Assembly: GCA_022826925.1 (NCBI GenBank)
Contig: JAJDTX010000033.1
Location: 1 to 64,000 of the forward strand
Direction: 5' to 3'
Source of the DNA: Bryobacterales bacterium
Lineage (GTDB): Bacteria > Acidobacteriota > Terriglobia > Bryobacterales > UBA6623
Length of the DNA stretch: 64,000 nucleotides
The notes under the pieces were generated by a model. That model saw only the letters and a program-made list of their open reading frames with translations. It did not search any database and was not told the origin of the DNA. How positions within the stretch are numbered: position 1 is the first letter of the stretch; every line of letters starts with the position of its first letter. The translations under genes were made by a program, and so were the position numbers. Shown here piece by piece: positions 28,737-33,328 of the stretch.

Positions 28737-30098
28737 CTAGCCACTAGAAGCGCGCAGAAGGAGTTCAAGCTCGGCCCGGAGTTCGGTCTTCGTCTCGTCC
28801 AGGCCTGTCTCGTTGATCAGGTTGCGCATTTCATACGGGTCCATCTCGAGATCGTACAGTTCGTCCATCCCAGCGAGTTCGGTGTAGCGTATATATTTCC
28901 AGCGCTCCGTTCGCACCGCGTGATAGCCCATGTTCGCCATGCGCGGCCAGACGGCGTCCGAAAAGTACTCGATGAGCGCGGAACGTCGCCAGTCTGACGG
29001 AACCCATCCCTCCAGCAGCGGCAGAAGCGAGCGCCCGTCCATTCCTGGAAGGGGCTCCGCCCCGGCCAGTTCCAGCAGCGTTGGTGCAATGTCAACGCTG
29101 AGCGCGAATGCGTTCGCTTCAGAACCGGTAGTCACTCGGGCCGGCCACCGGACTGCGAGAGGGACGCGGATGCTCTCTTCATAGGCGAGCCGGCGCTCCT
29201 CATTCAGGCCGTGCTCTCCGTAGAAGTATCCGTGATCGCTGGTCAGGACGATCACCGTGTTCTCCGCCTGTCCGGCTTCCTCGACTGCTCCCAAGACACT
29301 TGCAAAGGACTGGTCGGCCGCGGTCAGGATTCGGAGGCGGTTTCTTACAACGTGATCGGGCGTGCCGGTAGTGGGGCCCAGCGGAGGAACGCCCTCGATT
29401 CGACGTTCCAAGGCTCGCTTTCCATTGCCGTACGACCTGGCGTTCGGGCGCCTCGGGATGCGTTCCCGCTCGTACAGGCGGGAAAGCCGGGGTGGCGGCG
29501 TGAATCCGCCGTCCTCCGGAATCTGACGAATGCTGCCGTCGGCATCTTGGACCAGATTCGGGTGGACCGCCTTGTGAGAGAGGCAAGCGAGAAACGGCTG
29601 ATCGCGTCTCCGGCGGATGAATTCGGCGATGCGCTCGGAAAATAGATCCGTGGCGTACCCGGTCAACTGGCGCGGCTTCCCGTTGTCGTTGACTTCCGGA
29701 TCGAAATAATCGCCCTGGCCGCGGAAGCTGAGCCATTCGTCGAAGCCCGGCCGCGGGGAGTCGTCCAGGCCCATATGCCACTTGCCGACGAATGCGGTCT
29801 CGTAACCGGCCCTTTGGAGCGCCGTCGGGAACGTGACGAGCTGATGCGACCGCGGTCCCCGGTCCGAGTTGTCGACGATACCGTGCGAATGAGCGTACTG
29901 GCCTGTCAGGATGCAGGCGCGGTTCGGGGAACAGAGGGGGATCGGTGCGAACGCATTCGCAAACCGCATTCCCTCGTTCGCTACACGATCGAAGTTCGGC
30001 GTTTGAACGAAGGGATGCCCAGAGAACCCGAGGTCGTCAAACCGGACGTCGTCCAGAACCACGACAAGAACGTTAGGGCGCTCGATTGGGGAGTTCAT
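28737..30098 (-). CDS. sulfatase without signal peptide
   Basis: Formylglycine sulfatase of about 453 residues. RPNVLVVVLDDVRFDDLGFSG binds the metal, CSPNR (cysteine near residue 56) is the maturation motif, and GKWHMG and TSDHGYFYGEHGL complete the site. The C-terminus ends WKYIRYTELAGMDELYDLEMD. The ATG at 30098 aligns with family N-termini; alternatives lie at 30134 and 30182, and none has a good ribosome binding site. With no leader it may be cytoplasmic. It is the only intact gene with a clear role in the otherwise decayed 28.1-33.8 kb stretch. Confidence 0.9.
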   Translation of the reverse strand: MNSPIERPNVLVVVLDDVRFDDLGFSGHPFVQTPNFDRVANEGMRFANAFAPIPLCSPNRACILTGQYAHSHGIVDNSDRGPRSHQLVTFPTALQRAGYETAFVGKWHMGLDDSPRPGFDEWLSFRGQGDYFDPEVNDNGKPRQLTGYATDLFSERIAEFIRRRRDQPFLACLSHKAVHPNLVQDADGSIRQIPEDGGFTPPPRLSRLYERERIPRRPNARSYGNGKRALERRIEGVPPLGPTTGTPDHVVRNRLRILTAADQSFASVLGAVEEAGQAENTVIVLTSDHGYFYGEHGLNEERRLAYEESIRVPLAVRWPARVTTGSEANAFALSVDIAPTLLELAGAEPLPGMDGRSLLPLLEGWVPSDWRRSALIEYFSDAVWPRMANMGYHAVRTERWKYIRYTELAGMDELYDLEMDPYEMRNLINETGLDETKTELRAELELLLRASSG

Positions 30099-30268
30099 GG
30101 CCGACAAATCGCTTGAAGAATGAAGGCCGTGCATCTGACCCAAGGGACGGCAAGCCAAGTCCGGTTCCCTACCCTCAGCCACAAGGACCGCTACGGGACG
30201 GAATCCCGCGCTGGCCGGAGGAACCGGACCAGAAGAAAGAACAGGCGGCGTGCGCTAGACTCGCTCGC

Positions 30269-30424: not shown

Positions 30425-31284
30425 CCGTTCGGAGAAGGGGCGAAGCTCGCCCGACTCCCATATTTGGACGGGGGCACCCGGTACCCCTTTGTGCCCGAAA
30501 CGCCGGGCTCTAAGGGGATCCGGCGGGCACCTCGTTCCTGGGCCTTATGACCTGCAGGGCCTGCCACTCTAACAGCAGCCTCGTGACCTTGGCCGCGCGC
30601 GCCGGGTCCGAAGCGACCTCCAGGAATGACTCGTATTCCGTTGCCGCCTGCTCGAACTGCGCCCGCCCCTCGTGGACCATTGCCATGACGACTCGAGTCA
30701 GAGGCCATCGATCGGCCTCTCCGTGGTCTCTCATCTTCAGCACGAGTGATTCGGCGCGATCCAGATTCCCCGTCTGGGCGGCCGATGTAGCGGCCAGGTA
30801 CTGCGCGTAGACGGAACTGGGAGCGAGCTTTAAGTAGCGTTCAGAAAGTGCGTTCAAGACACCCCACTCTCCATGCAAGTAGGCCATTTGCATGAGCGGC
30901 TCGTAGGGCCCAAGGTATTTGGGGTCGGCATCGATCGACGCAGTCAGGGCATCCGTTGCGCCGGGGAGATTTTCCAGGCCCAGCCGGGCCTCGCCCAAGG
31001 CTGCCCACGCTTCCGCGTACTCGGGATAGGCCTCGACGGCAGCCTCGAGATGGGCGGCACTCTTCTGGTAGTTCGGAGACATCCTCCGAAGCATGCGGGC
31101 TCCCTTGTCGTAGGCCTTCGTCGCGTCGCGTGGCGCCTTCAGTGACGTCAAGCTCACCGTGTGTCCCTCAACTCCCTTGAGTCTGTGCAGGACGATGGTC
31201 CCGACATTGTTCCGCTCGAGGCTGCCAGCCGACCCCAACGGCAGGCGATCCGACCGATAACCAGTCAAGTGGGCCGTTAGGCGG

Positions 31285-31292
31285 CAATGAAA
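31285..31292. repeat. 8-bp target-site duplication, left copy
   Basis: CAATGAAA immediately left of the element; identical to 32574-32581. One copy is needed to restore the interrupted reading frame. Confidence 0.8.
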
Positions 31293-31307
31293 GGGAATTA
31301 TATACGA
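31293..31307 (+). repeat. left terminal inverted repeat
   Basis: GGGAATTATATACGA. Ten contiguous bases (TTATATACGA, 31298-31307) are the exact reverse complement of 32559-32568. Confidence 0.8.
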
Positions 31308-31344
31308 AAATAACACGCTCAAAAATATGCTATTATGACAACAG

Positions 31345-32550
31345 GTGACGCTATATACCACCTATTCCCTGAGGTGCTCCCTCTCTCCAGCGGGCTACCG
31401 GCAGATGGACAACATCCTTGTCCGGCTGAACCGGCTGTACAACCAAGCACTGGAGGAACGCAAGACGGCCTACGCCGAGCGCAAGCAAACGCTGAGCCTG
31501 TACGAGCAACACAAGTGGCTGACCGGGTTGCGTGCTCGCAATGAGCATGGACTGGGCGAGATCGCGCTCGGTCCGGCGCGCGGAATGCTCAAGCGCCTGG
31601 ACGAGGCGTTCCGGTCGTTCTTCCGGCGCGTCAAGGCTGGCCAAGCCCCGGGGTTCCCGCGCTTCCGGCCGCTCAGCCGTTGCGTCACGATTGACTTGGC
31701 GCAGATTAGTGGCGGAACTGTCAAGCCGCGGGGCAGCCACTACGACCTGCAGGTCAAAGGCTTTCCTCGCATCCGGCTGTACGGTTCGCGCGAGTTGCCG
31801 GACGCGGTGGCGAAGTCCGTCCGGCTGACCAAGCGCGGGCGGCACTGGGCAGCCTCGCTGGTGTATGCGGTCGAACGGGCAGCCCTGCCCGCCAGCGTCG
31901 AGGCGGTGGGGATCGATCTGGGCGTCCGCAAGCGCATGACGCTCTCGAACGGCAAGCGCTACCCGCGGGCAACCCGCGACTGGAAGCGCAAGCGCCGGAT
32001 GCAGCGTGCGGTCGCGCGCTGCCGCAAGGGCAGCCGGAGGCGGAGGAAGCGAGTGCAGGCGCTGGCGCGCTTGCAGCGCCGGGAGTTCGTGCGGGAGAGG
32101 AACGCCTGCCATCGGGCCACGACAGAGATCATCCGCGACCACGGACTGGTCGCGGTGGAGCGGCTGCAGGTGCGGAAGATGACGCGCTCAGCGCGAGGAA
32201 GGGAGGGACAACCGGGGAAAAACGTCGCGGCGAAGGCCGGGCTCAACCGGGAGATACTGTCACAGAATTGGGCGCTTCTACGGAGCCAACTACACGCCAA
32301 GGCAGCATGGGCCGGGCGCGAGTACGTGCAGGTTGATCCGAAGTACACTTCACGGGATTGCAGCAGGTGCCACGCGCGGAACAACCCGCACGCAGGGGAG
32401 ACGTACCGTTGCGGCGCCTGCGGACTGGTGGAGGATCGCGACGTCAATGCTGCGATCAACATCTTGGCGGCGGGGGTTATTGCCGCCGGAGCGTCAACGT
32501 GGGCCGCTGGGCCGTGCGTCGCTCCAGAATCGTATGCGAGGGCTGCATGA
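31345..32550 (+). CDS. tnpB: TnpB RNA-guided endonuclease
   Basis: TnpB protein of 401 residues, starting at a GTG (31345) that gives the family N-terminus TLYTTYSLRCSLSPAGYRQM. The RuvC active site appears intact: GIDLG with D191, LVAVERL with E272, and EDRDVNAAINIL with the final Asp near 364-366. The zinc ribbon is CSRC (C339, C342) plus CGAC (C356, C359). An Arg/Lys-rich segment (near 211-237) fits the RNA-binding bridge region. TnpB uses an RNA derived from the element's right end to cut DNA, helping the element persist. No frameshift is present, so the gene could be active although its host gene is dead. Confidence 0.95.
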   Translation: MTLYTTYSLRCSLSPAGYRQMDNILVRLNRLYNQALEERKTAYAERKQTLSLYEQHKWLTGLRARNEHGLGEIALGPARGMLKRLDEAFRSFFRRVKAGQAPGFPRFRPLSRCVTIDLAQISGGTVKPRGSHYDLQVKGFPRIRLYGSRELPDAVAKSVRLTKRGRHWAASLVYAVERAALPASVEAVGIDLGVRKRMTLSNGKRYPRATRDWKRKRRMQRAVARCRKGSRRRRKRVQALARLQRREFVRERNACHRATTEIIRDHGLVAVERLQVRKMTRSARGREGQPGKNVAAKAGLNREILSQNWALLRSQLHAKAAWAGREYVQVDPKYTSRDCSRCHARNNPHAGETYRCGACGLVEDRDVNAAINILAAGVIAAGASTWAAGPCVAPESYARAA

Positions 32551-32565
32551 CGTTACCCTCGTATA
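32533..32565 (+). ncRNA. right-end hairpin, candidate part of the omega (guide) RNA
   Basis: TATGCGAGGG (32533-32542) pairs with CCCTCGTATA (32556-32565) with one G-U pair and a 13-nt loop. It overlaps the end of tnpB and the right inverted repeat. In known TnpB systems the guide RNA covers the 3' end of tnpB and the element's right end, then continues into flanking DNA as the guide. The guide here would start at or just after 32574. RNA production is inferred by analogy. Confidence 0.45.
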
Positions 32566-32573
32566 TAAGCCCC
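32559..32573 (-). repeat. right terminal inverted repeat
   Basis: Reads GGGGCTTATATACGA on the minus strand, 13 of 15 identical to the left end. It overlaps the 3' arm of the right-end hairpin. Confidence 0.8.
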
Positions 32574-32581
32574 CAATGAAA
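32574..32581. repeat. 8-bp target-site duplication, right copy
   Basis: CAATGAAA immediately right of the element; identical to 31285-31292. Confidence 0.8.
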
Positions 32582-33328
32582 CAGGTTGATCCTGCCCGTT
32601 CGTGCCCGGATCGGGCCACGCTCCAGGGCTCGTGAAGGGACGCTGGCGTCGCTTGCCAGCACAGTGCGGTCCCCGTTCGGCTCGAAACTGAACCGGCCCT
32701 TCGCATCTGTGTATCCTTGGGGCCGAGCGCCGCCACCGCAATCCATCCCCACGAGGACCCGGTCGGGTGGAGGCTGGCCGCTATCCGTGAGGACTCTTCC
32801 CACCAGCACTACCGGTCGCCGCAAGGAGCGCCGATTCCAATCGGACTCGATCTTGCTCCTTTGGTTCGGATCGTTGCGCTGACGTGTTGTATCGGTGCGG
32901 TCGCGCGTTGGAGTCTGCGTGCCAGTGGGCGGACTTGGCGAGATTCCACCCGACGGACCCCTCGGCGCGGACGTTCCGAGGCTGTCGCCCCCGGGGCGGT
33001 GGGTGGTGCTGTCGGCTTCCGCGGCTCCGTCCTGCGGAGCCTAGGCGAACGTCGCTGGGGCTGCAAGGAAGGCGAAAGCCGTTAGCGACGCTCCCAACGC
33101 CGCCAGTCTGAAGTCCTGCATGGCATCAGACATGTGAGCCGACCGTGGCCATTCGAGCGGATGATCATAGCACAACAGGCAACCCAGATTTCCGGGACGT
33201 CGGCGAGGCGATCGACCGAATCTTGGCGGTGCCAACGTTCAGCGACGACTCGCATTGCCCGTGTTGTAAGCGCACTCGGCCTCGATAGGTCCCGTCCCTT
33301 GACGCGCCTAGCGCTTCAAGAGCGTATT

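Follow-up and report, generated by a model that had tools for sequence, protein, structure and literature searches.

A bacterial tnpB gene in a probable IS1595-mobilised element whose terminal repeat appears to double as a guide RNA stem

TnpB is an RNA-guided DNA-cutting enzyme and the ancestor of Cas12. Its presence is commonly attributed to what HUH (IS605) elements require, since these excise without a scar and thereby lose copies; ISDra2 TnpB is carried by a HUH element of IS605 type with the motif TTGAT. Elements of the IS200/IS605 and IS607 families that hold tnpB alone have been described without terminal inverted repeats (TIRs) and without target duplications (PMC3627910), and TnpB as a drive for IS605-type elements has been discussed (PMC11870625). 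The TnpB homologues Fanzor1 and Fanzor2* are found in eukaryotic DDE transposons, non-autonomous ones included, that have both TIRs and duplications (PMC3627910, PMC10711439); there the TIR is predicted to form part of the scaffold of the guide RNA, and the duplication has been described as belonging to it too (PMC10711439). IS1595 insertion sequences and their short derivatives have TIRs beginning GGG, 8-bp duplications, A/T-rich targets, passenger genes and non-autonomous copies. Here we describe a tnpB-carrying element in a Bryobacterales bacterium (contig JAJDTX010000033.1, positions 1 to 64,000, hereafter the window). Like the TnpB-only elements, it has tnpB as sole gene, a structured RNA overlapping the 3′ end of tnpB and the right end, and a guide probably drawn from the right flank; unlike them, it has TIRs and duplications. 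It resembles the Fanzor elements in these last features but is a bacterial TnpB, whereas Fanzors have eukaryotic or viral hosts and other transposase families. It shares the IS1595 features and differs in that it has no transposase and its right end doubles as a putative omegaRNA.

The element comprises 1281 bp (31293-32573) bounded by TIRs and 8-bp direct repeats, and it interrupts a gene for a tetratricopeptide repeat (TPR)-like protein. We consider it very probable that it is a non-autonomous IS1595-type (DDE) transposon carrying tnpB and a putative omegaRNA, which is moved in trans by an IS1595 transposase and whose TnpB would cut the empty allele. The features are as follows.

30510..33040 (upper limit approximate), minus strand: interrupted host gene for the TPR-like protein; frame restored by removal of the element, intact orthologue in genome G015
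31285..31292, no strand: left target duplication CAATGAAA, 8 bp; single copy at the uninterrupted site of G015
31293..31307, plus strand: left TIR GGGAATTATATACGA, IS1595 type; 13/15 against the right TIR, 17/20 against the autonomous IS1595 TIR of locus L245
31345..32550, plus strand: tnpB, GTG start, 401 amino acids (aa), RuvC and zinc-ribbon motifs intact; Pfam, PDB match to ISDra2 TnpB, selection between copies (below)
32559..32573, minus strand: right TIR, GGGGCTTATATACGA once reverse-complemented; 13/15 against the left TIR, 17/20 against the autonomous IS1595 TIR of L243
32574..32581, no strand: right target duplication CAATGAAA; predicted to supply guide nucleotides 1 to 8, judging from the position of IS605 and Fanzor guides

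Taking out 31285-32573 (1289 bp) gives a single 413-aa reading frame across the junction. In G015, a genome of the same genus, the site is uninterrupted: CAATGGAA occurs once, the 493-aa frame is intact, and identity across the junction is 79%. Within the whole window, this element is the only pair of TIRs (12/15 or better, 1.0-1.6 kb apart) accompanied by an exact 8-bp direct repeat; dinucleotide shuffles of the window give a mean of 0.05, and a chance origin of the repeats is rejected on that basis. The original prediction, made from the window alone, had claimed 15-bp inverted repeats (13/15), a perfect 8-bp duplication and a host frame restored by removing 1289 bp. All three are confirmed, correct to the base, and an empty site is seen in G015. 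Its proposal of a non-autonomous, DDE-mobilised TnpB carrier is supported by the duplications, the empty site and the IS1595 ends, and is narrowed to IS1595. The omegaRNA on the TIR, the short omegaRNA-only copies and the G beside the duplication, all described below, are new relative to it.

The same arrangement recurs. The window's own genome (G000) holds two more full-length tnpB copies and short remnants; the copy on contig C86 has the perfect duplication TAAAATTC (read in the direction of tnpB) once its true outer end is taken. We note that tandem TIR-like sequences lie upstream of tnpB in this copy (L003:2767 and 2809) and that the duplication borders the outer one only. The complete copies compared come from seven genomes of one Bryobacterales genus, with 65-97% protein identity. 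In the first set of complete tnpB-type elements from the genus, 11 of 12 have 8-bp duplications, 10 of them perfect and all different. The 8-bp match is thus not unique to the site in the window, and the copies with their own duplications that the original prediction had called for do exist at independent sites. Scanning ~80 omegaRNA-type ends, and afterwards every retrieved locus, yielded 16 omegaRNA-bearing insertions with duplications; for most remaining ends, which are short, old or truncated by a contig boundary, no left partner was obtained. Close copies in a named collection are from Bryobacterales and Terriglobia metagenome-assembled genomes.

The ends point to IS1595 as the mobiliser. 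The IS1595-type transposase domain (PF12762) is present in 11/11 genus genomes, and complete autonomous IS1595 elements of the genus make 8-bp duplications. Their TIRs include GGGGATTATATACGAGAGTG (L243), GGGGATTATATACGAGATTA (L082, L092) and GGGGATTATATACGAAACTC (L245), and every tnpB-type end matches an autonomous TIR at 13-20 of 20 positions (shuffled mean 7.8). These are the near-identical DDE ends that the original prediction had proposed to look for. A/T is preferred at duplication positions 2 and 7 in the tnpB-type and autonomous sets alike. The window's own genome has an IS1595 transposase frame of the matching subgroup (L025), with 83, 76 and 70% identity to its counterparts in the complete elements L094, L234 and L082. 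We also note that the IS1595 elements L031:3006-5795, L033:3211-6040 and L082:946-2676 carry as passenger a DNA methyltransferase with an HNH-like tail, truncated in L082.

The tnpB reading frame matches OrfB_IS605 and the Cas12f1-like TNB domain in Pfam. The RuvC and zinc residues, previously read as intact, are indeed so in the alignment to ISDra2 TnpB: the RuvC motifs GIDLG, VERL and DRDVNAA (D-E-D) and the zinc ribbon CSRC...CGAC are all present. The nearest solved structures are ISDra2 TnpB (PDB 8bf8, 8h1j, 8exa), the closest natural relative, with the same catalytic and zinc motifs, and a designed relative. The ratio of nonsynonymous to synonymous substitution rates (dN/dS) between tnpB copies is 0.17-0.46, mostly 0.2-0.3; the protein is therefore under purifying selection, that is, maintained.

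The right-end ~110 nt fold into three hairpins, the last of which uses the right TIR.

32465..32573, plus strand: putative omegaRNA-like structure with three hairpins, which overlaps tnpB at its 3′ end; supported by folds, covariation and fourfold-site identity
32532..32566, plus strand: terminal hairpin of the putative omegaRNA, its 3′ arm being the inner part of the right TIR; supported by the fold and by double-sided changes in 5/8 helix 3 pairs

Across 25 aligned ends 94.7% of cells pair, and double-sided changes are seen in 11/22 pairs. Cells with double-sided changes number 40, against 9.7 ± 2.4 in shuffles that ignore relatedness, and sliding the pairing partners by a few columns drops the scores far below those of the true pairing. 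The alignment takes in 182-bp and other short elements without tnpB, so the covariation is not explicable by coding constraint. Within tnpB, identity at fourfold-degenerate sites is 0.82 in codons overlapping the RNA versus 0.48-0.53 elsewhere. The end sequence of the element thus appears to double as part of the TnpB guide RNA. A covariance model finds ~100 right ends in 10/11 genus genomes and gives no match in seven genomes from the family's other genera. The remaining single-contig genus genome, G017, has no omegaRNA match and no TnpB, yet 34 IS1595-domain matches; it offers a natural comparison for the loss or absence of TnpB. The 182-bp omegaRNA-only elements are L044:10635-10816 (G000:C156), L020:1501-1682, L176:1901-2082 and L189:102-283; all four have almost the same target, tagcgATAAGATG, as would be expected of insertion in a repeated sequence.

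These observations suggest the following scheme. Autonomous IS1595 elements would supply the transposase in trans, which would recognise the TIRs of the tnpB element and create the 8-bp duplications. The TnpB transcript most likely ends in the omegaRNA; the structure comes from covariation, and its expression and boundaries are predicted. Because the last omegaRNA hairpin is the right TIR, the guide would be the duplication followed by the right host flank. Fanzor-style incorporation of the duplication into the structured scaffold is unsupported here, since the duplication sequence differs freely between copies; in contrast to Fanzors, the guide more likely starts with it. On this scheme TnpB would cleave the empty allele, in which host sequence (G at 16/16 sites) stands before the guide match, and spare the occupied one, in which the TIR end ...CCC stands there. 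Such cleavage would give an advantage to copies in which the element is kept or recopied, as has been proposed for the TnpB of IS605. The short omegaRNA-only elements would need the transposase and TnpB alike, each supplied in trans.

The base adjoining the duplication bears on how the two alleles might be told apart.

31284..31284, plus strand: G directly 5′ of the duplication, a possible transposon-adjacent motif (TAM) or transposase preference; 16/16 versus 13/28 sides of autonomous copies

In tnpB orientation this base is G in all 16 omegaRNA-bearing insertions, two of which are short elements sharing nearly one target, whereas in autonomous IS1595 copies 13/28 sides have G or, at the opposite side, C (4/14 and 9/14 for the two sides). 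Fisher tests give p = 1.9e-4 against all autonomous sides and p = 0.014 against the better side; both values are optimistic because the copies that revealed the pattern are largely those used to test it. At the occupied site the position before the guide match is always C, supplied by the TIR. The G may be a TAM that tells the empty from the occupied site, or it may be a transposase preference. That it reflects target choice by the IS1595 transposase only, with TnpB uninvolved, we judge slightly more likely than not. Autonomous copies have C on the far side in 9/14, which assigns part of the bias to the transposase; moreover, the two TIRs of a tnpB element are not alike, and this could let the transposase favour one orientation at insertion. 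The excess over the autonomous sides speaks against it, as does the base after the duplication in tnpB-type copies, which is not C-biased. Unlike the case of ISDra2 with its TTGAT motif, no conserved pentamer was seen upstream of the insertions here. We put forward only tentatively, as the less probable case, that TnpB selects the surviving DDE insertions, namely only those that have the G before the duplication. The G would then be a minimal TAM, the empty allele would be cleavable and the C-ending occupied one protected, retention would be driven by TnpB-omegaRNA, and the tiny omegaRNA-only elements would hitch-hike on IS1595 transposase and TnpB in trans.

That tnpB is passive cargo, IS1595 transposition moving the element while TnpB and the RNA contribute nothing, is conceivable since TIRs alone suffice for mobility and IS1595 elements of the genus carry other passengers, such as the DNA methyltransferase. 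We think it unlikely. The dN/dS values, the covarying RNA retained in elements without tnpB and the synonymous constraint where the RNA overlaps tnpB together indicate that protein and RNA are both maintained. TnpB normally travels in IS605 and IS607 families (PMC3627910, PMC9956272), and an ordinary TnpB-only element of either type might have landed between IS1595-like ends or beside a chance repeat. This seems to us extremely improbable. TIRs and duplications recur at many independent sites, already contradicting it, and the chance expectation in the window is that given above. No match to the Y1 transposase domain (PF01797) was found in G008, G009, G010, G013 or G014, nor to the serine recombinase domain (PF00239) in G009 or G013, all carriers of tnpB elements. 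Membership of IS200/IS605 (HUH) and of IS607 is rejected on these grounds. With the duplication recurring elsewhere and neither domain found in G009 and G013, the outcomes that the original prediction had named as telling against the DDE proposal were not seen. The TIR and duplication pattern was seen in 0/19 loci of more distant TnpBs of the class (~28-38% identity), several of which are weak tests because they are truncated at contig ends. Fanzor membership is rejected from the bacterial host genus and from ISDra2 TnpB being the best natural structural match, a rejection made without a Fanzor tree.

Several observations count against an IS1595-mobilised, TnpB-maintained element. The window's own genome, a metagenome-assembled genome of 93% completeness, has no complete IS1595 element with matching ends on both sides. 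We found no element combining an IS1595 transposase with tnpB, and mobilisation in trans is thus what we infer. An Rfam search gave no match to the omegaRNA-like RNA, the copy at L049 has no target duplication, and the G bias may be partly the transposase's, given 9/14 on one side of autonomous copies.

Among the searchable papers, with subscription journals and ISfinder outside our reach, we came across none that describes a TnpB in a bacterial DDE element. What appears to be new is a bacterial TnpB that is IS1595-mobilised, a TIR that doubles as an omegaRNA stem and the omegaRNA-only derivatives. A TnpB selectively maintained in a bacterial DDE element would separate the role of the nuclease from the HUH transposase, and would be a bacterial counterpart of the step that Fanzors made in eukaryotes. 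The copies are natural cases in which the transposase binding site and the guide-RNA stem would be the same, covarying sequence, so TAM, guide start and copy retention are open to direct tests.

One further tnpB-type element, L061:1475-2766 (G014:C242), has TIRs of another IS1595 subtype (16/20 to L033), and its TIR hairpin folds less well; the difference in subtype suggests TIR switching. In the window, a sulfatase-like gene (named from sequence; 28737-30182, minus strand) adjoins the interrupted TPR-like gene.
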